Positions 14,503-62,341 of a DNA stretch of 64,000 bases are shown one piece after another. The translations under genes were made by a program, and so were the position numbers. The stretch's first letter is position 1. Every line of letters begins with the position of its first letter. The stretch is from Micromonospora sp. FIMYZ51 (GTDB lineage Bacteria; Actinomycetota; Actinomycetes; Mycobacteriales; Micromonosporaceae): NCBI RefSeq assembly GCF_038246755.1, contig NZ_CP134706.1:558001-622000 (forward strand), read 5' to 3'. Below the pieces are notes generated by a model, which saw only the letters and a list, made by a program, of their open reading frames with translations, was not told where the DNA came from and ran no database searches.

Positions 14503-14703
14503 CAGCACCTCGGCACGCTTCACCGCCTGCTCCACCCGTCCCGAGCCACCCGACGCCGCAATCCCACCCGGCGATATCGTCGGTGGTTTCGACCTGATAA
14601 GGGTGCTTTGTTCCGGAAGATGGATAGACGCAACGTCCGGCCGTCCCGGCTCGGGCGTCGACCGGGCGGCGGCCCTGATTCCGATTTCTGAATCGTCGGC
14701 GAG

Positions 14704-17427
<2,724 letters not shown>

Positions 17428-17444
17428 CCGGTCGGCGAACCAGG

Positions 17445-44342: not shown

Positions 44343-44492
44343 AAACGACCCGGGCCGGTTGACGTCGTTAGGTGCAACGCCGCCGGGCCGGGCAGCACGA
44401 GGCCGCACCGTCACCGGCGCGGTCCGACCGGCGCTCACATACTCGAATCCACCGGGTGCGAGGCCCGTGCGCGGTGGTGGATGGAGGACGAG

Positions 44493-45722: not shown

Positions 45723-47999
45723 ATGTGGCGTCCGCGCTTCCGATCGGACTACCTGCCGGTGCGGCTGCCCGACGGTCCGCTCGTCGTGCTGGGCGAGACC
45801 CGCAGCCTGCTCGTGGACGACCCGGTCGCCGCCGAGTTGGCCGACCACCTCGACGGTGCCGCGCCGCTGGCCGACGTGGTGGCCCGGCTGGCCGTCCGGC
45901 ATCCGGTCACCGCCGTCGCCGCCGCGCTCGCCCGACTGCGCGACCACGGTCTGCTGGTGTCCGGTCCGGCGCACACCTCGCCGGCCGAGGCGGCCGGCTG
46001 GGACGCCCGGGGGGTGCCGCCCGACGTCGGGCAGCGGTGGATGGCCGGTGGTGAGGTGACAATCGTGGACCTCGGGGCGCCTCGGGTGGCCGAGACCGCC
46101 GACGCGCTGCGCGCCCTCGGGATCGCCGCGACGGTGGTCGGCCCGGACGCGCCCGACCCCGGCCCGGACGACGCCCAGGTGCTGGTGCTGCCGGGGTCGA
46201 TGCTGGATCCCCGGCTGGCCCAGATCAACGACCGGCACCTGGCCGCCGGCCGCGCATGGACACTCGCCCGGCCGCACGGCAACGTCGTCTTCCTCGGGCC
46301 GCACCTGGTGCCCGGCCGCACCGGCTGCTGGGCCTGCCTGCGGCAACGCTGGCAAGAGAACGAGCAGGTGAACGCCTATCTCGGCGGACAGGGCCTGGCC
46401 GGTCCGTTGCCGCAGCCCGGTCGGGCGGTCCTGCCCGGACTGGCCACCATGGCTGCCGGGCTGCTCGCCACCGAACTCGCCGTGCTCGCCGTGCGGGGCA
46501 CGTCGCCCCGGCTCACCGGCCGGATGGTCGCGCTCGACACCCGGGACCTGAGCCTGGAGGGCCACCAACTGGTACGCCAGCCGCAGTGCCCCGCCTGCGG
46601 CGACCCGGACCTCGTCCGCAAGGCCGAGCCCCGGATCGACCTGCCACCGAGCGGCACCCAACCCAGCCGGGCCGGGGAATCCCGCACCCGGGCACCCGCC
46701 GAGGCGTACGCCGCACTCGCCCACCACGTCAGCCGGTACCTGGGTGTGGTGAGCCGGCTGACCGCACTGGAGAAGACCGACAACGGCGTCACGCACACCT
46801 ACTCCGCCGGCCACAATTTCGCCCAGCCCCGGCAACTCGCCGCCCTGCGTCGCAACCTGCGTGGGCAGAGCGGTGGCAAGGGCCGGACCGACCTCCAGGC
46901 CCGGATGAGCGCGATCGGGGAGGCAGTGGAGCGCTACTGCGGGGTGTGGCGTGCCGACCGCCCGGTGCACCGGGCGACGTACCGGCAACTCGGCCCGGAC
47001 CGCGCGGTGCACCTGCGGGAACTGCTGCTGTTCTCCGAACGCCAGTACGCCGACCGGAGCCGGCTCAACCGCGACCTGGGCCACCTGCACCGGATTCCGT
47101 ACCCCCTGAGCGACCAGGTGGAGCTGGACTGGACCACGGGCTGGTCGTTGACCCGGCAGACACCGCGCGAGCTGCCCGCCGTGCACTGCTGGTACGGGCA
47201 TCCGGAGCTGACCGAGCTGGGGGTGTGCTCGGCCGACTCGAACGGCTGCGCGGCCGGCGGCAACCGGTCGGAGGCGATTGTCCAGGGCTTCTGCGAACTG
47301 GTGGAGCGGGACAGCGTGGCGCTGTGGTGGTACCACCGCTCCCGGCTGCCGGGGGTGGACCTCGCCTCGTTCGCCGACCCGTGGACCGCCGCCTGCGTCG
47401 ACCATCACGCCACCGCCCTGGGCCGCGAGCTGTGGGCCCTCGACCTGACCGCCGACCTCGGCGTACCCGCGTTCGCCGCGGTGTCCCGACGGGTCGACGG
47501 TGGGCCGGAGGACGTCCTGGTCGGGTTCGGTGCACACCTGGACGCGCGGGTCGCGCTGACCCGGGCGCTCACCGAGGTCAACCAGTTCCTGCCCGCCGTC
47601 GGCGAGCCCAACTCGGCGGGCAACCGGTACGGCGCCGACGATCCGGACACCGCACGTTGGTTCGGCACCGTGCGGGTGGCCGACCAGCCCTGGCTCCGGC
47701 CGGACCCGACCCGGCCGCCGCGCACCGCCGCAGACCACGAAGCGCTCACCACCGGTGACGTCGGGGACGATGTGCGCCGCTGCGTACGCCTGGCGGAGCA
47801 GGCCGGGCTGGAAGTGATCGTCGTCGACCAGTCCCGTCCGGATATCGACCTGGCGGTGGTGAAGGTCGTCGTGCCGGGACTGCGGCACTTCTGGCGCCGG
47901 CTCGGCCCTGGCCGACTGTGGGACGTCCCGGCCCGCCTCGGCCGGGACCCGCTGGCCACCGACGAGACGTCAGCAAATCCGCTGAACGTCTTCTTCTAG
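45723..47999 (+). CDS. Fused RiPP cyclodehydratase (E1-like/docking domain plus YcaO)
   Basis: The 758-residue protein joins an E1-like leader-binding part (about 1-300) to a YcaO domain (about 320-758). The first has a zinc tetrad made by CWAC near 202-205 and CPAC at 289-292. The YcaO part has SAIGEAVERYC (about 395-405) and EAIVQGFCELVERDS (about 517-531), which hold the ATP and Mg2+ ligands. Such C-D fusions turn Cys, Ser or Thr into azolines with ATP. The C-terminus ends NPLNVFF and lacks the PxPxP tail common in azoline-forming YcaOs. It opens the operon that includes the oxidase and export genes. Confidence 0.9.
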   Translation: MWRPRFRSDYLPVRLPDGPLVVLGETRSLLVDDPVAAELADHLDGAAPLADVVARLAVRHPVTAVAAALARLRDHGLLVSGPAHTSPAEAAGWDARGVPPDVGQRWMAGGEVTIVDLGAPRVAETADALRALGIAATVVGPDAPDPGPDDAQVLVLPGSMLDPRLAQINDRHLAAGRAWTLARPHGNVVFLGPHLVPGRTGCWACLRQRWQENEQVNAYLGGQGLAGPLPQPGRAVLPGLATMAAGLLATELAVLAVRGTSPRLTGRMVALDTRDLSLEGHQLVRQPQCPACGDPDLVRKAEPRIDLPPSGTQPSRAGESRTRAPAEAYAALAHHVSRYLGVVSRLTALEKTDNGVTHTYSAGHNFAQPRQLAALRRNLRGQSGGKGRTDLQARMSAIGEAVERYCGVWRADRPVHRATYRQLGPDRAVHLRELLLFSERQYADRSRLNRDLGHLHRIPYPLSDQVELDWTTGWSLTRQTPRELPAVHCWYGHPELTELGVCSADSNGCAAGGNRSEAIVQGFCELVERDSVALWWYHRSRLPGVDLASFADPWTAACVDHHATALGRELWALDLTADLGVPAFAAVSRRVDGGPEDVLVGFGAHLDARVALTRALTEVNQFLPAVGEPNSAGNRYGADDPDTARWFGTVRVADQPWLRPDPTRPPRTAADHEALTTGDVGDDVRRCVRLAEQAGLEVIVVDQSRPDIDLAVVKVVVPGLRHFWRRLGPGRLWDVPARLGRDPLATDETSANPLNVFF

Positions 48000-48045
48000 C
48001 TGACCGGTGCTCCCGGTCCGCCGGGAACGTGGAAGGGACGTGCAG

Positions 48046-48087
48046 ATGGCCACCATGGTGGACCCGGTCGGCCGGCGGTCGTGGTGA
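48046..48087 (+). CDS. Possible 13-residue leader ORF before the oxidase gene
   Basis: An ATG at 48046 follows GGAAGGGA at an ideal 7-base distance and opens a 13-codon frame (MATMVDPVGRRSW). Its TGA overlaps the GTG start of the SagB-type gene, which otherwise has no ribosome-binding site of its own. It could serve translational coupling. There is no reason to think the peptide itself has a function. Confidence 0.3.
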   Translation: MATMVDPVGRRSW

Positions 48088-49547
48088 ACGCCCCCGTCGG
48101 CGGTCCGCCGATCCAGGAGTCGTACCGGCTGCGTCGCGACGCGGAGCTGCGGCTCGGCGCGGACGGCTCGCTGATCCTGCGGCAGACCCGCTTCCAGCTC
48201 ACCCTGGAGCAACCCGGCATGGGCCGGCGCGGGCTGCTGCTGCGGCTCGCCGACGACTGGGTGAGCGATGTCGAGGTGGGCCGGTTGGTCAGCGGCCTGG
48301 AGGGGGAGAGTCGCGTGTTGCCGGCGCAGTTGCTGCTGCGTCGGCTGCTCGCCCACTCCTGGCTGGACCGCCGCGTCCAGGTCGACGATCGGGCGTTGCT
48401 CGACCTGATGCCCACCGGCCTGGGTCGGGGCAGTCTGCCGGAGAGCCGCCCGCACACGCCAGGGGTCCGCTACCGGCTGTCCCGCTTCGCCACCCTCCAG
48501 CACGACCGGGACATGCTCGTGGCCGCGTCGTCGCTGAGCCTGCTCACGGTCGGCTGCGCCGACGCCGCCCTCGGCGGGCTACTGGCCGCCGCCGTGCCGG
48601 GCGTCGAATTCGAGACCGTGACCCGCCTGCTCGGTGTGTCGCCGCAGGCCGCCGGTCGGGTGCTCGACGAACTGGTCACCGCCCGGATCCTGGTCACCGA
48701 CGCCGAGTTCGAGGCGGAACGCGATGCCGTGCCGCTGGCCTACTGGTCGCCGGAGGAACTGCGACTGCACAATCGTTCCCGGGCCGGCCGGCACGCGCTG
48801 CCGGTGGGCGGCACCTACCGGATGCGGGAGCGCTTCGCGCCGCAACCGCTGCGCCGCCCGTACGGCGGGGGTCGGGCGGTCGAGTTGCCGCTGCCGGACC
48901 TGACCACGATCGCCAAGGCGGATCCCGCGTTCAGCCAGGTCGTCGCGGACCGGCGCACCGTGCGCGAGCACGACGACGACGCACCGCTGTCCCTGGACCG
49001 GCTGGCGGAATTCCTGCACCGTTCGCAGCACACCACCGTGGTCGGCGAGGCAGGCGGACAGGAGGTCGGTCACCGGCCCTATCCGGGTGGTGGCGCGGTC
49101 TACGAGCTGGAGATCTATCCGCTTGTCGCGCGCTGCGCCGGGCTCGATGCGGGGCTCTACCACTACGACGCGGTCGGGCACCGGCTGGAGCCGGTCGCCG
49201 GCTGGGGGTCGGCCGCCGACCGGCTGTTGGCGTACGCCAGGGCGGCCGGTGCCATGCCCCGGCCGCCCCAGACGGTCCTGGTGGTCACCGCCCGGGTCCA
49301 GCGGCTGATGTGGAAGTACGAAGGGATGAGCTACGCCATGATTCTCAAGGACGCGGGTGTGCTGACCCATCAGATGTATCTCGTGGCCACCGCCATGGGG
49401 TTGGCACCGTGTGCGCTCGGTGCCGGCGACTCACACGCCTTCGCCGAGCTGTCCGGGCTGGACCCGCTCGTCGAACCGAGCGTGGCGGACTTCCTTCTCG
49501 GCTCGCGCCGCACCGCCGACCCGGCCGGAGCGGGAGGCCGGCCATGA
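48081..49547 (+). CDS. SagB/ThcOx-type azoline oxidase
   Basis: The 488-residue flavoprotein has an N-terminal winged-helix-like part (about 1-270) and a C-terminal nitroreductase-fold domain (about 285-485). Recognisable features are YPGGGAVYELEIYPL, GLYHYD and the MILKDAGVLTHQMYLVATAMGLAPCALGAG segment that holds FMN-binding and active-site parts. The family oxidises thiazolines and oxazolines to thiazoles and oxazoles. It lies between the cyclodehydratase and export genes, and its stop overlaps the start of the next gene. Confidence 0.9.
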   Translation: MVNAPVGGPPIQESYRLRRDAELRLGADGSLILRQTRFQLTLEQPGMGRRGLLLRLADDWVSDVEVGRLVSGLEGESRVLPAQLLLRRLLAHSWLDRRVQVDDRALLDLMPTGLGRGSLPESRPHTPGVRYRLSRFATLQHDRDMLVAASSLSLLTVGCADAALGGLLAAAVPGVEFETVTRLLGVSPQAAGRVLDELVTARILVTDAEFEAERDAVPLAYWSPEELRLHNRSRAGRHALPVGGTYRMRERFAPQPLRRPYGGGRAVELPLPDLTTIAKADPAFSQVVADRRTVREHDDDAPLSLDRLAEFLHRSQHTTVVGEAGGQEVGHRPYPGGGAVYELEIYPLVARCAGLDAGLYHYDAVGHRLEPVAGWGSAADRLLAYARAAGAMPRPPQTVLVVTARVQRLMWKYEGMSYAMILKDAGVLTHQMYLVATAMGLAPCALGAGDSHAFAELSGLDPLVEPSVADFLLGSRRTADPAGAGGRP

Positions 49548-50353
49548 AGTTCCGGCGGCAGGCGCTGCGCCAGTTGGAGGCGCCTGAGCAACTGGACCGG
49601 GCGGTCCGGCTGACCACCGTGCCGAGCTGGCTGGCCACCGCCGCTCTGGTCATCGTCGTGGTCGCCGCGGCTGTCTGGTCGGTACGCGCGGTGGTGCCGC
49701 GGACCGTCGAGGCGGCCGGGGTGCTGATCCACTCCAACGGGATCTCCGCACTCGACGCGCTCGACAGCGGTCAGATCACCAAGGTGTGGGCGGCACCGCA
49801 CCAGCGGGTGCCCAAGGGCACCCCGCTCTACAGCCTGCGCACGGTGGACGGCAAGGTCCGGGTGGAGACGGCGCCGGGTGACGCCAACGTGGTCGCCTGG
49901 TTGGTCTCCGAAGGTGAGATCGTCACCCCCGGCACCCACCTTGCCGATCTGGAGCGGCTGGACACCGCCGGGGACGCGCTGCAAGCAGTCGTCTACGCCC
50001 CCGCCGTCGCCGCGCCGCTGCTGCAACCCGGCATACCCGTGGAGGTGGCTGCCGCAGCGGCGCCGCGCAACGTGTTCGGCACCCTGGCCGGCCAGGTGAC
50101 CACGGTCGGTGCCTTCCCGGAGACCGAGGCGTCGCTGCGCGCCTTCCTGGGCACCGGCCCGGACGTCCGGCGGCTGCTCGCCCGGGGCAGCGTCGTCCGG
50201 GTGACGGTCGCCCTGGAGCCCGACCCGGCCGCTCCGGGCGGCCTACGGTGGACCAGGTCCCCGCCGCCGTTCCAGCTCAACTCGGCAAGCGAGGTGACCG
50301 CCTGGTTCACTGTGGACCGGGAGCACCCCATCGACTGGTTGCTGCGGCGATGA
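49544..50353 (+). CDS. NHLM-type RiPP secretion (membrane-fusion, HlyD-like) protein
   Basis: This 269-residue protein has one N-terminal membrane helix (about 26-50) and an extracytoplasmic lipoyl/barrel-sandwich-like body with GTPLYSLRTVDGKVRV and VAWLVSEGEIVTPGTHLADL. It is the membrane-fusion partner usual in NHLM bacteriocin export systems. It overlaps both neighbours by 4 bases (ATGA), so oxidase, fusion protein and C39 exporter are cotranslated. Confidence 0.85.
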   Translation: MKFRRQALRQLEAPEQLDRAVRLTTVPSWLATAALVIVVVAAAVWSVRAVVPRTVEAAGVLIHSNGISALDALDSGQITKVWAAPHQRVPKGTPLYSLRTVDGKVRVETAPGDANVVAWLVSEGEIVTPGTHLADLERLDTAGDALQAVVYAPAVAAPLLQPGIPVEVAAAAAPRNVFGTLAGQVTTVGAFPETEASLRAFLGTGPDVRRLLARGSVVRVTVALEPDPAAPGGLRWTRSPPPFQLNSASEVTAWFTVDREHPIDWLLRR

Positions 50354-52533
50354 GCGCGCCGACGACCGCCGCCGGAGATTCGCCGGAGATTCCCCGAATC
50401 CGGCGTCGCCGGGTCCGCACCCCCACCCTGATCCAGATGGAAGCGGTGGAGTGCGGTGCCGCCGCCCTCGGGATCCTGCTCGGCCACCACGGTCGGCACG
50501 TACCGCTGGAGGAGTTGCGCCGGGTGTGCGGGGTGAGCCGCGACGGCTCCACCGCGGCCACCGTGCTCAAGGGCGCCCGCCGGTACGGGATGGTGGCCAA
50601 GGGCTTCCAGATGGACCTGGCCGGCCTGGCCAGCGTGGCGCTGCCGGCGGTGCTGTTCTGGCGGTTCGAGCACTTCGTGGTGCTCGAAGGGCTCGGCCGC
50701 AAGGTCTTCATAAACGACCCGGCCACCGGCCCCCGCGCGGTGGACTGGGCGGAGTTCGACGGCGCCTTCACCGGCATCGTGCTCACCATGCAGCCCGGCC
50801 CCGAGTTCCAGCGGGGCGGCACCCGTTACCGGATGGTCCGGGCGCTGGCCGAGCGGTGGCGTGGCCCCGGGTCGGCCATCGCGCAGATGCTGCTGCTCGG
50901 TCTGCTGATCGCCGTGGTCGGTCTGACCATCCCGGTGATGGCCCAGGTCTTCGTCGACCGGGTGCTGTTGCAGGAGGACCGGGCGGCGTTCGCCGGCCTG
51001 GTGGCGGCGGTGGCCGTCGCCGCCGTGCTGACCTTCCTGGCCAGCCTGCTTCAGCAACGCCTGACCGTACGCGCGGAGACCGCGCTCGCCCTGGCCAGCG
51101 CCACCCGGTTCTTCCGACATCTGTTGCGACTGCCGCCGACCTTCTTCGACCAGCGGCAGGCCGCCGACCTCGGCCAGCGGGTGCGCAGCAACGACGCGGT
51201 CGCGGAGGTGCTCACCCGCCGGGCGGCCACCACCGTGGTGGACACCGCCCTGGTGCTGGCGTACGGGGCCCTGCTCTGCCAGTACGACCTGCTGCTCGGA
51301 CTCTGTGCGGTGGTGCTGGCCGGGCTGAACGTGAGTGTGCTGCGCTACGTCGCCTCGACCCGGTCGACGGCCGTGGTCGGACTCCAGGCGGATCGCAGCA
51401 AACTGGTGACCACCGTCTACACCACCGTCCAGATGATCGAGACGGTGAAGGCCGGCGGTGAGGAGGAGCGGGCGGTGGCCCGGTTCGCGGCACGTCACGC
51501 GACAGTCGCCTCCCGGCAACAGCGGCTGGGGGTGCCCACCGCGGTGCTCTCCGTCCTGCCGGTGTTCCTCGCCTCGGCGACCACCGCGGTGCTGTTGGGG
51601 CTGGGCAGCCGTCAGGTGGTGGCGGAGGCGATGACCGTCGGCGTACTTGTCGGCATGCAGAGCCTGGCCGTGGCGATGAACCGGCCGTTGGGCAATCTGA
51701 CCGCGCTGGGCTCGCGGTTGCAGGACGTGAGCGCCGACCTCAACCGGCTACGCGACGTGGAGCGGTATCCACTGCCGTCGGCCGAGGACCGCCCAGTTCG
51801 GCCGATGACACCGATGGAGGGGCACCTGCGCATCGAGGAGGTCACCTTCGGCTACAACCCGCTGGGCCGGCCACTGCTTGAGAACTTCAGCCTGGACCTG
51901 CCGCCGGGTGCCCGGGTGGCGCTCGTCGGGCGGTCGGGCAGTGGCAAGTCGACGGTGGGCCGGCTGGTCGCCGGGCTCTACCGTCCGTGGACCGGCCGCG
52001 TCACGGTGGACGGGGCTGAACGAGCGGAGGTCGACGACGGCCTCTGGGCGGCCACCGTCGCCATGGTGGATCAGGACCAGCGGCTGTTCGAGGGGACGGT
52101 CCGGGACAACGTCACCATGTGGGACCTCACGGTTGGCGACGAGGACGTCGTCACCGCGCTGACGGACGCCTGCCTCTACGGCGAGGTCGCGGCCCGCCCG
52201 GGCGGCCTGGCCAGCCGGGTACGGGAGAACGGCGGGAACTTCTCCGGCGGGCAACGGCAACGGCTCGAGATCGCCCGCGCGCTCGTCCGCAACCCCCGGG
52301 TGCTGGTGCTGGACGAGGCCACCAGCGCCCTGGACGCCGAGACCGAACGCCGCATCGACCTGCACCTGCGCCGACGCGGGGCGACCTGCCTGATCGTGGC
52401 CCACCGCCTGTCCACGGTCCGCGACTGCGACCTGATCGTCGTGCTGGATGGCGGTCGGGAGGTGGAGCGTGGCACCCACGAGCAATTGGTTGCGCGGGAC
52501 GGGGCGTACGCGCGCCTGATCCAGGACCACTGA
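50350..52533 (+). CDS. NHLM-type ABC exporter with C39 leader peptidase
   Basis: The 727-residue protein has an N-terminal C39 cysteine protease domain with Cys35 (AVECGAAALG), His108 (FEHFVVL) and Asp123 (FINDPATG). A six-helix ABC membrane domain and an ATPase follow, with Walker A at about 527-535 (GRSGSGKST), the signature FSGGQRQRLEIA near 632 and Walker B near 651. It should cut leaders after a Gly-Gly or Ala-Gly type site while exporting the product. The two downstream precursors carry VAG and IAGG at their leader ends, so both fit. Confidence 0.92.
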   Translation: MSAPTTAAGDSPEIPRIRRRRVRTPTLIQMEAVECGAAALGILLGHHGRHVPLEELRRVCGVSRDGSTAATVLKGARRYGMVAKGFQMDLAGLASVALPAVLFWRFEHFVVLEGLGRKVFINDPATGPRAVDWAEFDGAFTGIVLTMQPGPEFQRGGTRYRMVRALAERWRGPGSAIAQMLLLGLLIAVVGLTIPVMAQVFVDRVLLQEDRAAFAGLVAAVAVAAVLTFLASLLQQRLTVRAETALALASATRFFRHLLRLPPTFFDQRQAADLGQRVRSNDAVAEVLTRRAATTVVDTALVLAYGALLCQYDLLLGLCAVVLAGLNVSVLRYVASTRSTAVVGLQADRSKLVTTVYTTVQMIETVKAGGEEERAVARFAARHATVASRQQRLGVPTAVLSVLPVFLASATTAVLLGLGSRQVVAEAMTVGVLVGMQSLAVAMNRPLGNLTALGSRLQDVSADLNRLRDVERYPLPSAEDRPVRPMTPMEGHLRIEEVTFGYNPLGRPLLENFSLDLPPGARVALVGRSGSGKSTVGRLVAGLYRPWTGRVTVDGAERAEVDDGLWAATVAMVDQDQRLFEGTVRDNVTMWDLTVGDEDVVTALTDACLYGEVAARPGGLASRVRENGGNFSGGQRQRLEIARALVRNPRVLVLDEATSALDAETERRIDLHLRRRGATCLIVAHRLSTVRDCDLIVVLDGGREVERGTHEQLVARDGAYARLIQDH

Positions 52534-52557
52534 CCACGGCGATCGGAGGAGACGCTG

Positions 52558-55500
52558 ATGAGCGGCGCGGTGGAGGAGCCCCCGGCCGGTGGCCTGATCG
52601 GCTTCTGCGGCGACGGCGTACGCCAGGTCTGTCGCCTGGACGGCCCGGTGGCCGGATGGCTGGTGACCGGTGGCGAGGCCGACCTGTTCGCGGTGCGTCG
52701 GGCCGGGTTGAGCCCCTCGCGTCGCCACCACGTGGCCCGGCTGCCCGCGGGCGGCCTGGTGCCGACGTCCACCGCGCTCGGCGCGTGGCAGTTGATCCTG
52801 GTGCCGCTGCCCGGTACGGAGCTGCGCGGACTGTCCCGGCGGCACCTGTCCCTGCTGGAGCGGCACGTCCGGCTCGACCATGCCCCGGCGGAGGGGGCAG
52901 CGCTGCGGGCGCGGACGGCCGCCACGGAACTGGTCGCGGCGGTGGACCTGGTGCTGGTCAGCATCGCCGACGCGATGCGTCGCGGCCAGGCGCCCCGGGA
53001 GGCGTCCACCCTGCACGGCCGCGAGATCGTGTCGCTGGCCGAGGGGAGCGCCCTGACCTCAGTCAGCGGCGCCTGGTGGCTGCGCAGTGCCGGTGGTCAG
53101 CTGCGGCGCAACGGTGGCGGTCCGGCGGAGATGTCGGGGGAGCAGGAGCTGCTGCTGATCGTCGGCCGCGATTGGGTGGTGGCCGAGTCGCCGTGCGCGG
53201 TGGAGAGCCTCGGCAGTTGGGACCTGCTGGTCACCGGTCAGCTCCGGTCGGCGGTCGACCAGCATGTGGCCCGGCTGCTGCGGATGGTGGAGACCCGGAT
53301 CGAGGAGGCCGACGCGGCCCTGCTGCGGACGGTGGCACGCCGCCGGGACGCCGACGCCGCAGTGGTCGCTGCGGCGGCCCGTCGGTCGATCGGGGTGATC
53401 GGCGCGGGCGAGGCGGTGCCGGTTCCGGCCAGTGCACCCGACTTCGACCGGTACGGGCGAGCGGTCTCGGTGATCCGGGTGGTCACCGAGGGAATGGGTA
53501 GCCCGGTCCACGAGCCGACCGACCGCAGCCGCACCCCGTTGGACGATCGGGTGGCGGTACACGCGGTGTGCCGGGCGTCGAGCCTGTTCCTGCGCGAGGT
53601 GCAGCTTCCGGCCCACTGGTGGCGGCAGGATCTGGGGCCGCTTGTGGGGTGGCGGGTCGGCGACGACGCTCAGCCCGCCGTCGCGGTGCCGCTGCTGTTT
53701 CATCGCGGTCGCTACCACCACGTCGATCCGGACACCCGGGCGCACGGTCCGGTCGACGCGGGGTTCGCCGCCGGGATCGCCGCCGAGGCGACCCAGGTGC
53801 AGGCGCCGTTGCCGCTGGCCGCCCGGATGCGTCACCTGCTGCGGGCCGGGCTGTTCGGGGCCGCCCGCGACGTGCGGGGTCTGCTGTTCGCCGCCGCCTG
53901 CGTGGCGCTACTGGGCCTGGGCGTGCCGCTGGCCACCGGCGAGGTGCTCGGCCAGTTGGCCCGGCAGGGCAAGGTCGACGGCCTGCTCGGCTTCGTCGGG
54001 CTGATGCTCTGTGCCGCAGTGGTCGCCGGGCTGGTCGGGGTGGTGCAGAACCTGCGGCTGCTGCGCCTGGACGGCCGGTTGCAGTCCGGCGCGCAGCTGG
54101 CGATCTGGGACCGGCTGATGCGGTTGCCGGCCCGCTTCTTCACCAGCCGCAGCAGCGGTGAGATCGCCAACTCGATGTTGGGGATCTCGTTCGTCGGTGA
54201 GGCGCTGAGCGCGCTACTGCCGCAGATCGTCTCGGCGGCGGCGACCGTCGTAGTGACGCTCGGCATGCTCCTGCTGGTCGAGCCGGTGCTCGGATTGTGG
54301 GGAGTCGGCATCGTCGCCGTCACCGCGCTCGTCTTCGGCACGTTCGCCGTCCTTATCGTCCGCCAGCAACGGTCCGCGCTGCCGGCCGAGCACCGGGCGG
54401 CGGCGATGACCAACCAGTTGCTCGGCGGCATCGTCAAGATCAAGCTGGCGGCCGCCGAGGCGCGGGCCCATGCGCGCTGGTCGGAGTTGGCCGCGGTGGC
54501 CAGGGCGGCGCTGCAACGGGTCCGGCAGAGCCAGGCGGGCCTGGTCGCCTTCGCCACCGTGCTGCCGGTCGCCGGTCAACTGATCCTGTTCGCGGTGCTG
54601 ATGGGGCCGCTCGCCGGCCGGGTACCGCCGGCCGACTTCTTCATCCTCAACGTCGGCTTCGCCATGCTGCTCGGGGCGCTGCTGGTGCTGGTGGCCGCCG
54701 GGGTCGAGGTGATCGCGGCAGTGCCCCGCCTGGGCAACCTGCGGGAGATCCTGCGTGCCGAACCGGAGGCCCGCCCGGACCGGGTCGACCCCGGTGAGTT
54801 GCGGGGCGAGATCGCGCTGCACCGGCTCACCTTCGCCTACCAACCGGACGAGCCGCCGGTGCTCGTCGACATCGACCTGCACGTGCGTCCGGGCGAGTTC
54901 GTCGCCATCGTCGGACCGAGTGGCTGCGGGAAGTCCACGCTGCTCCGGCTGCTGCTCGGCTTCGAACGCCAACAGCAGGGCGCGGTGCTCTACGACGGCC
55001 AGGACCTCTCCGAACTCGACGTGCATGCGGTCCGTCGGCAGTGCGGCGTGGTGCTCCAGGACGGCCAGCTCTTCGCCGGCTCGGTACGGGACAACATCTG
55101 CGGTGCCGGCAGCTTCACCCTGGACCAGGTCTGGGAGGCGGCGCGGATGGCCGGCCTGGCCAGCGACCTGGAGGCGCTGCCGATGGGCATGAGCACGATG
55201 GTGCCGTTCGGCGGCGGGACGCTCTCCGTCGGGCAGCGCCAGCGGGTGCTGATCGCCCGCGCGCTGGCTCCCCGGCCCCGGATCATCTTCTTCGACGAGG
55301 CGACGAGCGCGCTGGACAACCGGACCCAGGAGATGGTGACCAGGAGCACCGCAGCGCTGGCCGCGACCCGTGTGATCATCGCCCACCGGCTGTCCACGGT
55401 CCGCGCCGCGGACACCATCGTGGTCCTCGAAGCGGGACGGATCGTCCAGCGGGGCAGCTACGACGAGTTGATGGACCAACCCGAAGGGCTGTTCCACCGG

Positions 55501-55590
55501 TTGGCGCGACGGCAACTGCTCGTCGAATCGGAGGGCTCCGACGCGATGCCGGCGGGCCGGCAGCCCGACGGGCAACCCGCGACGGGCTGA
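52558..55590 (+). CDS. Second NHLM-type ABC transporter with long N-terminal domain
   Basis: This 1010-residue protein has a soluble N-terminal half (about 1-430), a six-helix ABC membrane domain from about 442 and an ATPase with Walker A GPSGCGKST near 787, signature LSVGQRQRVLIARAL near 888 and Walker B FFDEATSALD near 911. It has no C39 catalytic Cys. NHLM systems regularly encode this second, longer ABC protein, which probably pairs with the C39 exporter. The start follows CGGAGGAGACG, 24 bases after the preceding gene. Confidence 0.9.
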   Translation: MSGAVEEPPAGGLIGFCGDGVRQVCRLDGPVAGWLVTGGEADLFAVRRAGLSPSRRHHVARLPAGGLVPTSTALGAWQLILVPLPGTELRGLSRRHLSLLERHVRLDHAPAEGAALRARTAATELVAAVDLVLVSIADAMRRGQAPREASTLHGREIVSLAEGSALTSVSGAWWLRSAGGQLRRNGGGPAEMSGEQELLLIVGRDWVVAESPCAVESLGSWDLLVTGQLRSAVDQHVARLLRMVETRIEEADAALLRTVARRRDADAAVVAAAARRSIGVIGAGEAVPVPASAPDFDRYGRAVSVIRVVTEGMGSPVHEPTDRSRTPLDDRVAVHAVCRASSLFLREVQLPAHWWRQDLGPLVGWRVGDDAQPAVAVPLLFHRGRYHHVDPDTRAHGPVDAGFAAGIAAEATQVQAPLPLAARMRHLLRAGLFGAARDVRGLLFAAACVALLGLGVPLATGEVLGQLARQGKVDGLLGFVGLMLCAAVVAGLVGVVQNLRLLRLDGRLQSGAQLAIWDRLMRLPARFFTSRSSGEIANSMLGISFVGEALSALLPQIVSAAATVVVTLGMLLLVEPVLGLWGVGIVAVTALVFGTFAVLIVRQQRSALPAEHRAAAMTNQLLGGIVKIKLAAAEARAHARWSELAAVARAALQRVRQSQAGLVAFATVLPVAGQLILFAVLMGPLAGRVPPADFFILNVGFAMLLGALLVLVAAGVEVIAAVPRLGNLREILRAEPEARPDRVDPGELRGEIALHRLTFAYQPDEPPVLVDIDLHVRPGEFVAIVGPSGCGKSTLLRLLLGFERQQQGAVLYDGQDLSELDVHAVRRQCGVVLQDGQLFAGSVRDNICGAGSFTLDQVWEAARMAGLASDLEALPMGMSTMVPFGGGTLSVGQRQRVLIARALAPRPRIIFFDEATSALDNRTQEMVTRSTAALAATRVIIAHRLSTVRAADTIVVLEAGRIVQRGSYDELMDQPEGLFHRLARRQLLVESEGSDAMPAGRQPDGQPATG

Positions 55591-55597
55591 TGGCCCG

Positions 55598-56380
55598 TCA
55601 GCCGTTGTCGATCACCGAGCTGTCCTCCAGGCACACGTCCGCGTCGAGGTGGTTCTCCATCAGCTCCGCGACATGCGCCTCGGCCTGGTTCTCCACGGCC
55701 AGCCGGAACGCCTCGGTGAGCAGGTTGACCACCCCCCGGGTCAGCAACAGCGTCTCCCGGTCGAGGTCGGCCCAGGACGACTGGGCGCCGCCGCGCACCA
55801 GCTCCGGCGCGAGGGCCAACATCCGCGCGGTGACGGCGGCGACCAGCTCGTCGGCGACCGGGCGCAGGCTGTCCAGTACCTCGCTGAGGGTCTGAAGGGC
55901 GGGCACCGTGCCCATCCGGACCCGATGCAGGTCCAGTGCGGCGCGCAGCGGACGGGGCCGGACGGTGCGGACGGTGCCGTCGGTGGCCCGCCCGATCACG
56001 CCATGGCGGGTCAACGCGTGCGCCAACGCGGGATGGTCGGCCGCCAGCCGGTGCAGCATCGCGGTCAGCCCGTCGGGTGCCTCGTCACCGGCGCGGACGC
56101 CGAGCATCGCCTCGATGGAGACGAGGTTGAAGCCCTGCCGTTGCAGGGCGAGGATCGCGTCCAGCCGGCGTACGTGGGAGTCGTCGTAGAACGCGGCCCG
56201 ACCGTGTCGCACCGGCGGGGGCAGCAGCCGTCGAGCCTGATGGGCCCGGATGTTGCGGGCGGACATGCCAACCTTGCGGGCGAGCTGCTCCACGGTGTAT
56301 CCGGCCGCGCCACCAGGAGTCGTTCCCACGGCCGTCCTGGCCTCGTCGATGGTCACGGTGGCCTCCGGCAACTCGGTCAC
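55598..56380 (-). CDS. MerR family regulator of the RiPP cluster
   Basis: The protein has a MerR winged helix near its N-terminus (YTVEQLARKVGMSARNIRAHQARRL..., DDSHVRRLDAILALQRQGFNL) and an all-helical C-terminal effector part of about 150 residues. The effector part lacks cysteines in a metal-binding arrangement. The GTG at 56380 (260 residues) is preferred to one at 56449 because the intervening codons look non-coding. It is the only leftward gene of the cluster, and points away from the precursor promoter. A TipA-like role, binding the peptide product, is an inference. Confidence 0.8.
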   Translation of the reverse strand: MTELPEATVTIDEARTAVGTTPGGAAGYTVEQLARKVGMSARNIRAHQARRLLPPPVRHGRAAFYDDSHVRRLDAILALQRQGFNLVSIEAMLGVRAGDEAPDGLTAMLHRLAADHPALAHALTRHGVIGRATDGTVRTVRPRPLRAALDLHRVRMGTVPALQTLSEVLDSLRPVADELVAAVTARMLALAPELVRGGAQSSWADLDRETLLLTRGVVNLLTEAFRLAVENQAEAHVAELMENHLDADVCLEDSSVIDNG

Positions 56381-56722
56381 GGCACACGGCACCCCGTCGA
56401 ACCGCTGTCGGGGTAGCGATCCGCCGATTGCAGCGTATGGGCGGGCCACGGGCCAAGGACAGACGAGGAACTACTACTTGTCTCCAGTGGTGGCAATCAT
56501 TAGAATCCGCAATCCGCCGTTGGTCGCTGATTCCCAATTACCCGGCTTTCGCCGCAGCGCGACCTTTTCGCGGCCACATTCAATGAAATTCCCACTCGGC
56601 GCGCGGATCGGGTCGGCCGGTGACCCACGATGAGGCGAGGCCGGCGCTCGGTAAACCCAACGCACCGCCGGTCGCCGCCCTGGTGTCGTCACCGGCGGCT
56701 GACCATCGAAGGGAGCGGGAGT
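56381..56722. other. Control region between the MerR gene and the first precursor
   Basis: About 340 bases without a gene, lower in GC than the flanks (especially 56470-56590). It holds the precursor promoter at 56478-56506, which leaves a 5' untranslated leader of about 210 bases. I see no clear riboswitch. The long leader and the neighbouring MerR gene suggest regulation here. Confidence 0.5.
56478..56506 (+). promoter_or_regulatory. Promoter for the RiPP precursor operon
   Basis: TTGTCT (56478-56483) and TAGAAT (56501-56506) are 17 bases apart, a good housekeeping-type promoter reading toward the precursors. MerR regulators often act on promoters with a stretched 19-base spacer. This one has the normal 17, so activation by DNA twisting is not required. 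It lies about 100 bases from the MerR start. Confidence 0.6.
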
Positions 56723-57085
56723 ATGACACCTGTCGATCGAGCGGTCTTCGTGGCCGCGTACAGCCGGCTGGTCGCCGACGTCTGGGCCGACCCGGTGAAG
56801 GAGCAGGCGCTCGACCGGGACCCGCGCGGGTTCCTGGCCGGGTACGGGCTTCGGCTGCCCGAGCAGGTGCAGGTCCGGGTGGTTCGGGACGCCGGTGACA
56901 CCGAACCTGACCTGGAGGTTCAGGTCGAGTCGTGGGAGTCGGCGGCGAGCACCGGCGTCTTCGTGCTCTTCGTGCCGTCGTTGCAGCCGGTGAGCGAGGC
57001 GGAGCTGGCCGAGGACGAGCTGGACAGCGTCGTCGCCGGCCTGGACTCCAGCTGCGCCTGCTGCTGTCCGTGCTGCTGCACCTGA
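56723..57085 (+). CDS. NHLP-type RiPP precursor 1 with Cys-rich core
   Basis: The 120-residue precursor has a nitrile-hydratase-like leader: an N-terminal helix (FVAAYSRLVADVWADPVKEQ), the FLAGYGLRLPEQVQVRVV strand and a closing acidic helix (AELAEDELDSVVAG). The core is LDSSCACCCPCCCT, with Cys at 111, 113-115 and 117-119, so seven of nine residues are Cys. Cys-dense cores suit the cyclodehydratase and SagB oxidase upstream, giving up to seven thiazoles plus possible oxazolines. Cleavage by the C39 peptidase after VAG is likely. The start follows GAAGGGAGCGGGA. Confidence 0.88.
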   Translation: MTPVDRAVFVAAYSRLVADVWADPVKEQALDRDPRGFLAGYGLRLPEQVQVRVVRDAGDTEPDLEVQVESWESAASTGVFVLFVPSLQPVSEAELAEDELDSVVAGLDSSCACCCPCCCT

Positions 57086-57146
57086 CACCGATGTCTGCCG
57101 TGGATCGGCCGGCGCGGCAGATTCTGGTGGCAGTCAGCCGAAATCG

Positions 57147-57176
57147 TTGATTGTCGAACACCTATCTTCCTAGCGT
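57147..57176 (+). promoter_or_regulatory. Possible second promoter before precursor 2
   Basis: TTGATT (57147-57152) and TAGCGT (57171-57176) are 18 bases apart in a relatively AT-rich gap between the two precursor genes. If used, it would let precursor 2 be made separately from precursor 1. The match is moderate. Confidence 0.35.
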
Positions 57177-57236
57177 TCTCGGCACAGCAATTCGTCGTAC
57201 GTCCCGCGCTGATCCACCGACGAAAGGACCCGAACG

Positions 57237-57611
57237 ATGAGCAACGACGAGCAGGAATATGGCGCGAGGTTCGTGGCCAAGTACTCGGAGCTGGTCACCG
57301 CAGTGTGGCGCAGTGACGAGGAACTGGAACGGCTCCTCGCGGACCCGACCGGCTACGCGACAGCGGCCGGCCTGCCGGTGGACCCCGGAGCCGTGGTCGA
57401 GGTCGACCGCGCCCAGCCCGCCACGCTCTACACAAAGGACCAGATCGTCGCCGACTGGTCCGGCACTCCCGGCCGGCACGTACTGCACGTGCCCGAGGTT
57501 CCCCTGGTCGACCTCAACGAGCTGAGCGAGGCGGAGTTGGAGACGATCGCCGGTGGCGTGCCCCCGGCGGCCGACAACAACGTGAACATCATCGCCGTCC
57601 TGATCATCTGA
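57237..57611 (+). CDS. NHLP-type RiPP precursor 2 with hydrophobic core
   Basis: The 124-residue precursor has the same leader design as precursor 1 (FVAKYSELVTAVWRSDEELE, GYATAAGLPVDPGAVVEV, then LNELSEAELETIAGG). Its core is VPPAADNNVNIIAVLII, residues 108-124. The core has no Cys, Ser or Thr, so it cannot be a substrate for azole formation. The next genes encode a YcaO and a TfuA, the pair that installs backbone thioamides, so the core is probably thioamidated. The ATG follows GAAAGGACC. The gene is 151 bases after precursor 1. Confidence 0.85.
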   Translation: MSNDEQEYGARFVAKYSELVTAVWRSDEELERLLADPTGYATAAGLPVDPGAVVEVDRAQPATLYTKDQIVADWSGTPGRHVLHVPEVPLVDLNELSEAELETIAGGVPPAADNNVNIIAVLII

Positions 57612-57638
57612 GTTCCCCCCACCACGCCGGGAGCCTCG

Positions 57639-58805
57639 ATGACTGACACGACCGAGACCATCGCATTCCGATCCGGCACCTACCGGACGGCCACCGTGGA
57701 GCAGACCTGGCAGCGGGTCGGTGGCATGCTCGACCGGTTCCGGATCACGCGGGTCGCCGACATCACCCGCCTCGACGAGATCGGCCTACCGGTGCACGTC
57801 GCCTACCGGCCGGTCGGAGCCACCATGGCGGTGAGCGTCGGCACCGGCGCTACGGCGACGCAGTCGCGGGTCAGCGCGGTGATGGAGAGCATCGAGTCCT
57901 GGCATGCCGAGAACCTCCGGCCGGGGACCGTCGTCCGGTCCCCGGCCGAGGCACTCGACCTGCCGTACGACGTCCGCTGGTTGCACCTGGCGGAGCGGTC
58001 GCCGCTGACTCCTGCCGTCGTACTCGACTGGGTGGCCGGCCGTGGGTTGGTGACCGGCACGCCTTGCCTGGTGCCCCGCGCCACGATCGAACTCGACTTC
58101 ACCGTCCGGCGGGGCTGGGAGCGGGCCCTCTTCAGCCCCAGCAGCAACGGACTGGCCACCGGGAACACCTTCGCCGAGGCCAGCCTGCACGCCCTGCTGG
58201 AGGTCGTCGAACGCGACTGCATCGCCCCGTACTGCACCTCTGCATTGGCCGAGCGCACCTACACCGACCCGGGCACCGCCACCAACGCGATGACCCGCAC
58301 CGTGTACGAGGCGTTGCGGCAGGCCGGTTGCTGGGTGGAGGTCTGCGACATCACAAACGCGGTGGGCGTACCCTGCTATGCCGCCTCGATCTGGTCGGCG
58401 GATCTGCCGGTCACCTTCGGTGGCTTCGGCTGCCACGTGGACCCGGAGATCGCCGTCGGTCGAGCCATGGCGGAGGCCGCCCAGTCGCGGCTGGTGATGG
58501 TCTCCGGTGCCCGGGACGACATCGACGCCACCGCGTACCACGACGTCGGCGCACCGCCGGTGCCGCCGCCCACCGTCGACCGGCCCGTCCATCCGGTACG
58601 CCGGGACCGCCCGCCCACCGGGGACGTGAGCCAGGTGCTGCGCGAGTTGGCGGCGCGGGTGCAGCGGATCACCGGCGTCGAACCGTTGAGCGTCGACCTG
58701 ACGCACGACGACATCGGTATCCCGGTGAGCAAGGTGTTCGCCCCCGGCCTGCGGATGTTCGACGAGCGGGCGCTGAGTACCCGACCAGGAGTGCCCCGTG
58801 ACTGA
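57639..58805 (+). CDS. Standalone YcaO protein paired with TfuA
   Basis: This 388-residue YcaO domain protein has the family ATP-site segments SRVSAVMESIESWHAE (about 74-89) and EASLHALLEVVERDCIAPY (about 181-199), and closes with VSKVFAPGLRMF. It lacks an E1-like partner domain. YcaO proteins next to TfuA make thioamides, as in methyl-coenzyme M reductase and thioviridamide-type peptides. The GTG start of the tfuA gene lies 8 bases inside its end. Its likely substrate is precursor 2, 28 bases upstream. Confidence 0.88.
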   Translation: MTDTTETIAFRSGTYRTATVEQTWQRVGGMLDRFRITRVADITRLDEIGLPVHVAYRPVGATMAVSVGTGATATQSRVSAVMESIESWHAENLRPGTVVRSPAEALDLPYDVRWLHLAERSPLTPAVVLDWVAGRGLVTGTPCLVPRATIELDFTVRRGWERALFSPSSNGLATGNTFAEASLHALLEVVERDCIAPYCTSALAERTYTDPGTATNAMTRTVYEALRQAGCWVEVCDITNAVGVPCYAASIWSADLPVTFGGFGCHVDPEIAVGRAMAEAAQSRLVMVSGARDDIDATAYHDVGAPPVPPPTVDRPVHPVRRDRPPTGDVSQVLRELAARVQRITGVEPLSVDLTHDDIGIPVSKVFAPGLRMFDERALSTRPGVPRD

Positions 58806-60198: not shown

Positions 60199-60208
60199 GG
60201 AGGAGTCG

Positions 60209-62341
60209 ATGAGCGATACGGTGCAGGCGGCGCTGATCTATCCCCCGCTTACCGATCCCACCTCGGGATACCACTCCCTGAACTACCTCGACTCGTACGC
60301 CCGGGCGCAGGGGCACCGGCCGGCGGAGATCATCGACGCCAACATCGAGGCGTTCCATCACTCGTACACCCCGTCGGCGTACGAGTGGCTGCGGCGGGAA
60401 CTGTCCCGGCTCTCGGTCGACGACCTCGGCGGCCCGGACGCGCTGATGGCCCGGGCGAATCAACTCGGCCTGCCCGACCCCGATCCGGAGCGGCTGCGTC
60501 GGTCGATCGGGACCTTGCAGGATCCGGTCCTGTTCTACGACTACCGGCACTACCAGGACGCCGTCGAGGGCGTGATCTCCTGGATGGACGCGCTCGGCAC
60601 GATCGGCTTCCCCGGACAGTTCCGGGCCGGCTTCCGGCTCCAGCCGCCGCCGATGATCTCGATCGGCTCGGTGGCCGCGTTGACCGACGAAACGGTGCTC
60701 GGCCGGCTCAACCGACCGTTCCAGCCGTACTACGAGGACGTGCTGATCCCGCGGCTGGTCGCGGGCGGGCACCAGGTGATCGGGATCAGCGCCACCTATC
60801 AGTGGCAGCTGCCGTTCGCGCTCTGGATCGCCCGACTCGTCCGGCGGGCCTGCCCGGACGTCTTCCTCATCGCGGGTGGCACGGAGATCTCCGACGTCTG
60901 GAAGTGTGCCAGCCGGCCCGAGTACGTCTTCCAGGTGCTCGCCGACTTCGACGCGATCGTGGTGGGGGAGGGGGAGAGCGCGTACACCGAGATCCTGGAC
61001 GCGGTGGCAACCGGCACGCTGCCGGCCGGGCACCCAAACGTGCGGCTGCACCCGAAGTACGGCCGCCAGCGCCAACTGCCCCTGCGCTACGAGCGCCTGG
61101 CGCAGGTGCCGGTCCCGGACTTTTCCGGCCTGCCCTGGGATCTCTACCTCAGCCCGGAGCGGTTCGTCTACTATTCGCCGACCCGGGGCTGCTACTGGAA
61201 CAAGTGCACGTTCTGCGACTACGGCCTGAACACCGACGGTCCCACCAGCCCGTGGCGGCAGGACCCGGTGGACACGATGATCGCAGACGTCACCGAGCTG
61301 TCGAAGTTCGCCAAGTTCATCTACTTCTCGGTGGACGTGCTCGCTCCCGCGACCATCCTGCGCTTCGCCGAGCAGGTCGTCGAACGAGGGCTCGACATCC
61401 GCTGGGGCGCCGAGATCCGGCTGGAGAAGTACTGGTCGGACGAGCGCTGCGAGCTGTTGCGGCGCAGCGGCTGCGTGGCCGTCTCGGTCGGCTTCGAGTC
61501 CGGCAACCAGCGCATTCTCGACCTGATCGACAAGGGCACCAAGCCGGCGCAGGTACGGCGCACCATGACCGCGATGACCAAGGCCAACATCGGTGTGCAG
61601 ATGATGGGCTTCACCGGCTTTCCCACCGAGACCCGCGACGAGGCGCTGGACAGCATCACGTTCCTGCGCGACAACCCGGACCTGTGGACCCTCGGCGGGC
61701 TCGGCGAATTCATGCTGACCCCGGGCGCCATCGTCGCCAAGGAGCCGGAGCGGTTCGGCATCAGCAACGTGCGGCCGGTGGCGGGCTCGGACATCGTCCG
61801 GGTGCTCCGGTACGACGAGCCGGTGACCGAGGCGGCGCAGGCCGAGGTCGCCCAGGCCAAGGCCGGCCTCAACCCCGGGCACTTCCACCGGCCGTGGCTG
61901 GGCAGCACCGACACCCCGCACACGTTCTTCTACCACGACCGCTACGGCACGGCGGTGCGCGGCGTACTCGCCCACGACCGGGTCCGGCACGACACCGATG
62001 ACCAGACCCAGTTCCTCGCCAACGGCACCTTCGTGGACTGCGGCGACGAACAGGTCTGGGAGGCGTACCGGCGGCTGCGGTCGGACGACCAGGACGGCGT
62101 CCCCGGCGACCTGCCGGCGGGCCGGCATCTGTTCCGCCGCGCCGACGGGCAGGTGTTCGCGCTGAACCGCAGCAGCCGGCTGTTCCTGGATCTCTTCACC
62201 GCCCCGCTCACCCTGGCCGAGGCACAGCGCCGGCTCTGGATCGTCGAGCCGGCGGTCGCCGACCGGGTCTGGCGGACCTTCATCGGGCAGCGGCTGATCC
62301 GCCGGCACCGCCTCCCGGCCCCCGCCGAACCCACCCGGTGA
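60209..62341 (+). CDS. B12-binding-domain radical SAM enzyme of the RiPP cluster
   Basis: The 710-residue protein has a cobalamin-binding-type N-terminal region (about 165-300, with VIGISATYQWQLPFALWIARLV and FLIAGGTEISDVW) and a radical SAM core with Cys328, Cys332 and Cys335 (CYWNKCTFC). A C-terminal part of about 110 residues (HLFRRADGQVFALN) may be a leader-binding helix domain. Relatives methylate unactivated carbons of peptides, though other reactions occur. Its start follows GAGGAGGAG, 10 bases after tfuA, so it belongs to the same transcript. The substrate is unknown; precursor 2 is the nearest. Confidence 0.85.
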   Translation: MSDTVQAALIYPPLTDPTSGYHSLNYLDSYARAQGHRPAEIIDANIEAFHHSYTPSAYEWLRRELSRLSVDDLGGPDALMARANQLGLPDPDPERLRRSIGTLQDPVLFYDYRHYQDAVEGVISWMDALGTIGFPGQFRAGFRLQPPPMISIGSVAALTDETVLGRLNRPFQPYYEDVLIPRLVAGGHQVIGISATYQWQLPFALWIARLVRRACPDVFLIAGGTEISDVWKCASRPEYVFQVLADFDAIVVGEGESAYTEILDAVATGTLPAGHPNVRLHPKYGRQRQLPLRYERLAQVPVPDFSGLPWDLYLSPERFVYYSPTRGCYWNKCTFCDYGLNTDGPTSPWRQDPVDTMIADVTELSKFAKFIYFSVDVLAPATILRFAEQVVERGLDIRWGAEIRLEKYWSDERCELLRRSGCVAVSVGFESGNQRILDLIDKGTKPAQVRRTMTAMTKANIGVQMMGFTGFPTETRDEALDSITFLRDNPDLWTLGGLGEFMLTPGAIVAKEPERFGISNVRPVAGSDIVRVLRYDEPVTEAAQAEVAQAKAGLNPGHFHRPWLGSTDTPHTFFYHDRYGTAVRGVLAHDRVRHDTDDQTQFLANGTFVDCGDEQVWEAYRRLRSDDQDGVPGDLPAGRHLFRRADGQVFALNRSSRLFLDLFTAPLTLAEAQRRLWIVEPAVADRVWRTFIGQRLIRRHRLPAPAEPTR

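Follow-up and report, generated by a model that had tools for sequence, protein, structure and literature searches.

Two YcaO enzyme systems, two homologous NHLP-type precursors and one exporter set in a co-inherited Micromonospora gene cluster

Two sets of YcaO-dependent peptide-modifying enzymes lie side by side in Micromonospora sp. FIMYZ51, and the question raised by this locus is whether they form a single biosynthetic system or are two neighbours. The window that we analyzed is the whole stretch of 64,000 nucleotides at positions 558,001 to 622,000 of contig NZ_CP134706.1, and the source genome is a single contig of 7.05 Mb. The genes at 45723-62341 of this window are ordered as follows: a fused cyclodehydratase (C-D fusion), a SagB-family dehydrogenase (SagB), an HlyD-like protein, a C39 peptidase-ABC exporter (ABC1), a second ABC protein (ABC2), a MerR-family regulator, precursor 1 (pre1), precursor 2 (pre2), a stand-alone YcaO, TfuA and a cobalamin-binding (B12) radical SAM enzyme. 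All lie on the plus strand except the MerR gene, which is on the minus strand. A first-pass annotation, made from the letters alone, had named the main genes of this group, and family models and homology searches found every gene so named in place. With a probability of about 0.6 we conclude that the locus is one co-inherited cluster for ribosomally synthesized and post-translationally modified peptides (RiPPs), in which two precursors with homologous leaders of the nitrile hydratase leader peptide (NHLP) type give rise to two peptides by way of distinct enzyme sets and one exporter.

Joint inheritance of the two halves was followed in 160 Micromonospora genomes, in 354 genomes of the Micromonosporaceae and in 36 other intact clusters that were fetched and make 37 together with that of the window. 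TfuA matches were found in 43 of the 160 Micromonospora genomes (E 1e-3) and C-D matches in 37 (E 1e-60). In each search 27 genomes stood apart, with at least 76% identity and the next best at 44% for TfuA, and with at least 79% and the next best at 43% for the C-D fusion. The 27 genomes are the same in both cases, and they are also the 27 Micromonospora genomes with pre1. Among the 354 genomes, the family search found the C-D fusion in 37 (E 1e-150) and YcaO in 38 (E 1e-80), the additional one being G500, which is treated below. A pre1 profile (E 1e-8) matched 39 genomes, that is the 37 intact clusters, a remnant in G519, and G500, where the match is to pre2. The remnant (L273, 11465-14875) consists of the MerR gene, a frame-broken pre1 and a pre2-like match; no cluster enzymes were found in the stretches read there.

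The C-D fusion, SagB, HlyD, ABC1, ABC2, pre1, pre2, YcaO, TfuA and the B12 enzyme are all present in 36/36 fetched relatives as well as in the window, counting two clusters that reach contig edges and have an incomplete gene there (L066 and L265). Gene order is identical in 26/26 Micromonospora relatives. Four loci (L265, L270, L271 and L272) are rearranged into two divergent groups, one with pre1, pre2, YcaO, TfuA and the B12 enzyme and the other with a lipoprotein gene, C-D, SagB, HlyD, ABC1 and ABC2. Pairwise distances of TfuA and of the C-D fusion correlate with r 0.992 over 666 pairs and 0.92 over the 351 Micromonospora pairs. For the proteins of the two halves in general, the correlation lies between 0.96 and 0.99 when all clusters are taken and between 0.65 and 0.94 within Micromonospora; the ABC2 and the lipoprotein comparisons each omit one cluster, in which the protein is truncated or missing at a contig edge. 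Since shared species history is uncorrected in these values, they speak for joint inheritance, not for coevolution.

The co-occurrence of C-D and YcaO and the full gene set in the relatives rule out a chance adjacency of two clusters, because separate searches with C-D, YcaO and pre1 reach the same genomes and 36/36 relatives hold the full set. The first-pass annotation had proposed one system rather than two neighbours, and this holds in 37 of the 38 family genomes with this YcaO, which keep C-D, pre1, pre2, TfuA, the B12 enzyme and the exporter together; a separation of the halves, which would have spoken against the proposal, is thus not what close relatives show, although one half can be found without the other among more distant homologues. 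The latter observation is what can be said for two independent clusters that only resemble one system: homologues of each half exist alone (L137 and L138; L165 and L168), and an evidently separate cyclophane cluster abuts the locus downstream. Against this, 37 intact clusters spread over three genera keep both halves, rearranged ones included, and share a single exporter set, which makes two independent clusters a very improbable account.

The two precursors are related to each other. Their leaders, 34% identical over 101 aa (E 2e-10), are homologous. Pre1 matches the NHLP model TIGR03793 at 30.7-31.1 bits (E 2e-7), below the curated cut-off of 50.9. Among 21 chosen relatives of pre1, 20 match this model at E 1e-3, the best at 3e-11. 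No match of pre2 to TIGR03793 was obtained at E 0.01, though its leader is homologous to that of pre1. A candidate double-Gly-type cleavage motif precedes each core, VVAG in pre1 and AGG in pre2 of the window, VVAG or VVGG in pre1 and AGG or AAG in most pre2 of the relatives. The pre2 leaders of three clusters (L266, L267 and L268) end in AAA before the core, not in GG or AG. An AAA leader end would be unusual for C39 cleavage.

The locus holds one exporter set. The C39 peptidase-ABC protein scored 898.2 bits against TIGR03796 (cut-off 853.3), the second ABC protein 689.7 bits against TIGR03797, just below the cut-off of 709.4, and the HlyD-like protein 134.5 bits against TIGR03794, below the cut-off of 156.2. 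The C39-ABC protein, second ABC protein and HlyD-like protein that together characterize an NHLM exporter are thus all encoded here, the NHLM models being the best, albeit sub-cut-off, matches for ABC2 and HlyD. Judged by its family, the C39 peptidase-ABC protein is probably the leader protease. Its C39 domain would remove both leaders by a cut after the AG/GG motif, with both products then leaving through this single exporter.

The two cores have evolved in opposite ways. The pre1 core reads ACCCPCC[C/S] in 37/37 clusters; each of the 36 fetched clusters has exactly one strong pre1 match, and none was dropped. Of the 8 core columns 7 are invariant, compared with 28 of the 111 in the leader; the core has a mean entropy of 0.05 bits and the leader one of 0.76, and 0/103 eight-column windows of the leader reach an entropy as low as that of the core. 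Among the 27 Micromonospora sequences, core codons vary silently (synonymous differences, pS, 0.196) without a single amino-acid change (nonsynonymous differences, pN, 0; pN/pS 0), and the leader has a pN/pS of 0.31. For pre2 it is the leader that is more conserved (pN/pS 0.18 versus 0.30 in the core; 26 sequences, counted without L027, whose core is one residue shorter). The pre2 core lacks Cys, Ser and Thr in 24/27 Micromonospora clusters, including that of the window. As a defining feature of pre2 this is not supported, since outside Micromonospora 12 of 13 copies carry at least one of these residues. An Asn-Val-Asn-like motif often recurs in pre2 cores by eye, and pre2 is doubled in three clusters (L263, L264 and L269).

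The protein database listed 100 matches to pre1 and 75 to pre2, the query family included, and they reach Actinoplanes, Solwaraspora, Dactylosporangium, Winogradskya, Jatrophihabitans and metagenomes. The 100 pre1 matches, among them the protein of the window itself and fragments, were found partly via five-residue words that overlap the core. Because these matches are biased towards the core, and because the 37 clusters were recovered also via YcaO and C-D, the invariance of the core rests on the clusters. The cores of the NHLP class are described as hypervariable (Haft 2010, PMC2887384; Cox 2015; these papers and those cited below are drawn on for part of their text). For such a class a core as nearly invariant as that of pre1 is unusual, and it suggests a product with a fixed task.

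The enzymes fall into two sets. Over residues 177-343 the C-D fusion matched TIGR03882 with 113.5 bits (cut-off 36.9), over residues 385-753 it matched TIGR03604 with 255.5 bits (cut-off 219.25), and residues 20-753, nearly the whole length, aligned to LynD (phmmer, E 1.8e-151). SagB reached 154.6 bits with TIGR03605, over the cut-off of 78.4. A C-D cyclodehydratase with a YcaO domain and a flavin mononucleotide dehydrogenase (B protein), the pair by which clusters for linear azole-containing peptides (also called thiazole/oxazole-modified microcins, TOMMs) are recognized, are hence both present. In the second set, the genes for YcaO and TfuA are adjacent and overlap (57639-58805 and 58798-60198; PF02624 and PF07812), as is expected for thioamidated RiPPs. 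The best solved relative of the stand-alone YcaO is MJ1094 (E 2e-28), which is labelled uncharacterised and which we take to be the McrA thioglycine enzyme. TfuA scored 178 bits against NF033432, below the cut-off of 235.2; its residues 4-176 match the solved TfuA 6xp8, and about 250 further residues are without an assigned fold.

The product of 60209-62341 is, by its domains, probably a cobalamin radical SAM enzyme that acts as a methyltransferase. PF02310 was matched with 30.4 bits, just below the cut-off of 32.1, and 13/13 aligned homologues match both PF04055 and PF02310 at E 1 or better. Its score does not support membership of TIGR03975, the family of RiPP B12 radical SAM C-methyltransferases (76.5 bits, far below the cut-off of 281.85), and it scores higher against the PhpK family model (90.4 bits), likewise far below the cut-off, which is 600. 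The radical SAM motif at residues 328-336 has the spacing C-x4-C-x2-C (GCYWNKCTFC), as it does in 13/13 aligned homologues; the usual spacing is C-x3-C-x2-C. A PqqD-like leader-binding domain, suspected by eye in the C-terminus, was not supported by Pfam at E 1 in 13 homologues, 11 of which carry the C-terminal part.

In the chemistry of these families, azoles are formed by a C-D fusion with SagB and thioamides by a YcaO with TfuA, and backbone thioamidation needs no special side chain. For the family chemistry the accounts of Malit (2021) and Haft (2010) were also drawn on. Of the two cores in the window, only that of pre1 contains Cys. The side-chain independence of thioamidation and the restriction of Cys to pre1 make it sensible to assign pre1 to C-D and SagB and pre2 to YcaO and TfuA. 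The C-D fusion would then bind the pre1 leader and turn the Cys residues of SCACCCPCCCT into rings, which SagB would oxidise to give a poly-thiazole with up to seven thiazoles interrupted by one Pro. YcaO and TfuA would exchange a backbone oxygen for sulfur in the pre2 core, which the B12 radical SAM enzyme would probably C-methylate.

A natural deletion bears on this assignment. In G500 (L274), the C-D fusion, pre1 and the lipoprotein gene were not found in the roughly 57 kb that cover the locus and its surroundings, and a C-D gene was not found elsewhere in the genome at E 1e-150, whereas pre2, YcaO, TfuA, the B12 enzyme, the exporter genes, MerR and SagB are kept. Phospholipase-like and regulator open reading frames (ORFs), so labelled by eye, follow SagB. 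The joint loss of C-D and pre1 agrees weakly with precursor-specific modification sets, and to this extent the claim of the first-pass annotation that each precursor has its own set gains some support; the retained SagB and two genes in pieces do not fit it.

Several observations weigh against our interpretation, and the first two come from G500 itself: its SagB is retained, which leaves no clean split between the enzyme sets, and its HlyD and B12 enzyme are each in two pieces, a possible sign of decay or of sequencing error in what is a single case. In addition, YcaO-TfuA pairs of 54-58% identity occur without C-D, NHLM or NHLP genes in the stretches read (L165, L168 and L169, the last of only 5.5 kb). 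A metagenome protein (P0074) joins a pre2-like leader to a CCCPCCCC core; the link between leader and core is hence not rigid, and the sequence suggests that the two can be recombined. For the B12 enzyme, neither a search of solved structures nor a profile comparison with the N-termini of C-D and SagB found a leader-binding domain in the C-terminus. The TfuA C-terminus likewise showed no similarity in four profile comparisons and no leader-binding domain by sequence. Finally, the B12 enzyme could act on the Pro of pre1, because the cobalamin C-methyltransferase of nostatin A is thought to act on a Pro of the azole core (PMC11583998).

Each half has relatives that stand alone. Two Micromonospora loci (L137 and L138) hold a C-D fusion of 39% identity, SagB, an NHLM exporter and an NHLP-like precursor whose Cys-bearing core ends TVSCPGACVGMSA, and no TfuA was found in the 20 kb read. 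Seven other loci around more distant C-D homologues (L133-L136 and L139-L141) have SagB-like genes and no NHLP match. A rough ORF scan beside the YcaO-TfuA pairs of L165 and L168 revealed no obvious precursor. In L028, on the same contig as L169, a YcaO-TfuA relative (54%) is followed downstream by an ORF ending SSSCCYVATKAA. Since homologues of the halves exist alone, the composite looks assembled from such parts and kept whole thereafter. A further locus (L030 in G054, 7074-17488) combines two YcaO, TfuA, HlyD and a C39 exporter with a Nif11-like precursor (core GITGDNPTIITTTTVTVGAAAAAAT) and a LanM-like protein, the latter two labels having been assigned by eye; by eye it is thioamide and lanthipeptide machinery with a double-Gly exporter.

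The thiopeptide-like look, by eye, of the L028 ORF is among the reasons to consider that both YcaO systems and the B12 enzyme instead converge on pre1, giving one thioamidated, C-methylated poly-azole with pre2 as a minor substrate or helper. Thioamidated thiopeptides, which carry both groups, are a model for such convergence. The Pro of the pre1 core is invariant, C-methylation of Pro has a precedent in the azole proteusin nostatin A (PMC11583998), and thiopeptides with TfuA-YcaO thioamides are cited by Malit (2021, PMC8120280). Nevertheless, we regard convergence on pre1 as unlikely: G500 has no pre1 and still has pre2, YcaO, TfuA and the B12 enzyme, and the presence of pre2 in 37/37 clusters, doubled in three of them, is odd for a mere helper.

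A different possibility, compatible with two separately modified peptides, is that the mature peptides work only as a pair, pre1 providing the fixed active part and pre2 the variable partner. The co-occurrence of both precursors and one exporter set in 37/37 clusters and the contrast of a fixed with a variable core would fit this, and two-peptide lantibiotics are known in which diverse cores go with conserved leaders (roseocin, PMC10027976). Joint action is a prediction here, and G500 keeps pre2 alone; an obligate pair is a credible proposal to which we would give somewhat less than even odds. In its most extended form, our interpretation would have a pair of sister leaders direct their cores to different YcaO machines and a single exporter release both peptides, with the products acting jointly as an invariant poly-thiazole and a lineage-specific thioamidated partner. 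We put this forward tentatively and think it rather doubtful as a whole. If it holds, the poly-thiazole from a run of six or seven Cys is possibly a metal-binding, signalling or membrane-active scaffold, not an arms-race antibiotic.

The first-pass annotation knew of no described system of this design. This overstated the case, since TfuA-linked NHLP precursors (PMC6511847) and TfuA-YcaO clusters with a fused cyclodehydratase (PMC8120280) are published. The NHLP-TOMM systems (Haft, Basu and Mitchell 2010, PMC2887384) share with the present family the NHLP precursors, the fused cyclodehydratase (TIGR03882) and the NHLM trio TIGR03794/03796/03797, and there, too, several precursors may use one enzyme set. 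They differ in their hypervariable cores, where the pre1 core is fixed, and the main text does not mention TfuA. The TfuA-linked Network 7 precursors of Actinobacteria all have nitrile hydratase domains (Santos-Aberturas 2019, PMC6511847); these actinobacterial TfuA clusters thus resemble ours in the type of leader, and as the text drawn on gives neither gene content for Network 7 nor a second YcaO system, they are possibly identical with the present family. In TfuA-YcaO clusters with a fused YcaO-cyclodehydratase and a dehydrogenase (Malit 2021, PMC8120280), azole and thioamide machinery likewise stand together, and some TfuA clusters have a B12 radical SAM enzyme. Unlike here, the extra enzymes are described as further modifying the thioamidated peptide, most clusters have split lanthipeptide dehydratases, and the sections drawn on mention neither an NHLP leader nor a pair of precursors nor a C39 exporter.

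The azole proteusins nostatin A and carnazolamide (PMC11583998, PMC10676384) have an NHLP leader and a YcaO cyclodehydratase with dehydrogenase in common with our locus, and the nostatin cluster also has a cobalamin C-methyltransferase (PMC11583998). In the passages drawn on they differ in that one precursor takes the modifications and in their Lan-type dehydratases and epimerase, and no YcaO-TfuA pair is mentioned there. A Nakamurella cluster (PMC10676384) likewise holds an azole-type YcaO and a second YcaO adjoining TfuA, but stands among the clusters with LanM-type dehydratases and has one Ala-rich precursor. In the literature consulted we found no description of a cluster that joins two NHLP precursors and two YcaO sets to a single C39 exporter, although supplementary figures may already draw the family; searches for work related to the pre1 core motif and for Actinoplanes combined with TfuA likewise found none. 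The design of the cluster is a variation on NHLP, azole and thioamide systems already known, and its strict co-inheritance and the frozen Cys core are the striking parts.

Table 1. Features of the locus, in window coordinates, with the matches that identify them.
Feature	Coordinates	Strand	Matches
LuxR-type regulator, AAA ATPase and TPR	41409..44342	+	PF13191, PF00196
Lipoprotein-like protein	44481..45515	+	no Pfam match at E 0.1
Fused C-D cyclodehydratase (E1-like/leader-binding and YcaO), LynD/TruD-like	45723..47999	+	TIGR03882, TIGR03604, LynD homology
SagB-family dehydrogenase (predicted azoline to azole)	48081..49547	+	TIGR03605; PF22767, PF00881
NHLM HlyD-like secretion protein	49544..50353	+	TIGR03794, below cut-off
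C39 peptidase-ABC exporter (NHLM ABC1)	50350..52533	+	TIGR03796; PF03412 1e-30
Second NHLM ABC permease/ATPase (ABC2)	52558..55590	+	TIGR03797, just below cut-off
MerR-family regulator, divergent from the precursors	55598..56449	-	PF13411 5e-15
Precursor 1 (pre1), NHLP-type leader, core LDSSCACCCPCCCT	56723..57085	+	TIGR03793 E 2e-7, below curated cut-off
Precursor 2 (pre2), leader homologous to pre1, variable Asn/hydrophobic core VPPAADNNVNIIAVLII	57237..57611	+	
Stand-alone YcaO, thioamidation type	57639..58805	+	PF02624 7e-64
TfuA with C-terminal extension of about 250 residues	58798..60198	+	PF07812 2e-43
Cobalamin-binding radical SAM (B12) enzyme	60209..62341	+	PF04055 1e-14; PF02310 30.4 bits

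The limits first drawn for the locus enclose all the genes named, but they leave out the conserved lipoprotein gene upstream of C-D (Table 1). This gene belongs to the cluster: it was found in 35/36 fetched relatives, the sole miss (L066) being at a contig edge, and it remains beside C-D in the four rearranged loci. Its product is possibly an immunity or binding protein. The LuxR-type gene lies at the edge of the locus in 25/26 Micromonospora relatives, the 26th stopping at a contig edge. Of the 10 clusters from other genera, two gave short matches to it and no more, and in at least four of the other eight the fetched stretch stops before the place of the gene. The LuxR-type protein is probably a pathway regulator in Micromonospora. 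The MerR gene is present in 35/36 relatives, with the one miss (L265) again at a contig edge, and MerR, together with the LuxR-type protein in Micromonospora, would control the gene set. A search of four cluster proteins against phage-protein families returned a single match, which links the MerR protein with a family whose function is unknown. The 27 Micromonospora clusters share conserved DNA between MerR and pre1 (window ~56393-56722), a block around TTCGCGGCCACATTC being part of it, and in these clusters it did not resolve into an operator.

Downstream of the B12 enzyme lies a separate neighbour (L278), which in window coordinates begins at 62574 and continues beyond the window end at 64000 to about 68300. 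It starts with a small protein with Trp-x-Asn motifs (62574-62867), followed by a tandem pair of GrrM-type genes for cyclophane radical SAM enzymes (62882-64099 and 64107-65297, the latter recognized by eye). The first of them scores above the cut-off of TIGR04261 for the part inside the window. By eye, the ORFs after the tandem genes resemble an acyltransferase, an acyl carrier protein and a ketosynthase, and the neighbour is possibly a cluster for a lipid-linked cyclophane RiPP. Membership of the genes at 62574-62867 and from 62882 onwards in the cluster described here was rejected on the evidence of relatives: the small protein was found in 1/160 Micromonospora genomes, its own, and the stretches fetched for the 36 other clusters yielded no match to it or to the radical SAM gene that follows.

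If our interpretation is correct, the cluster would be a compact system in which to learn how homologous leaders steer two members of one enzyme superfamily to different cores in one cell. A poly-thiazole of up to seven rings and a thioamidated partner would be concrete targets for mass spectrometry in culturable Micromonospora.

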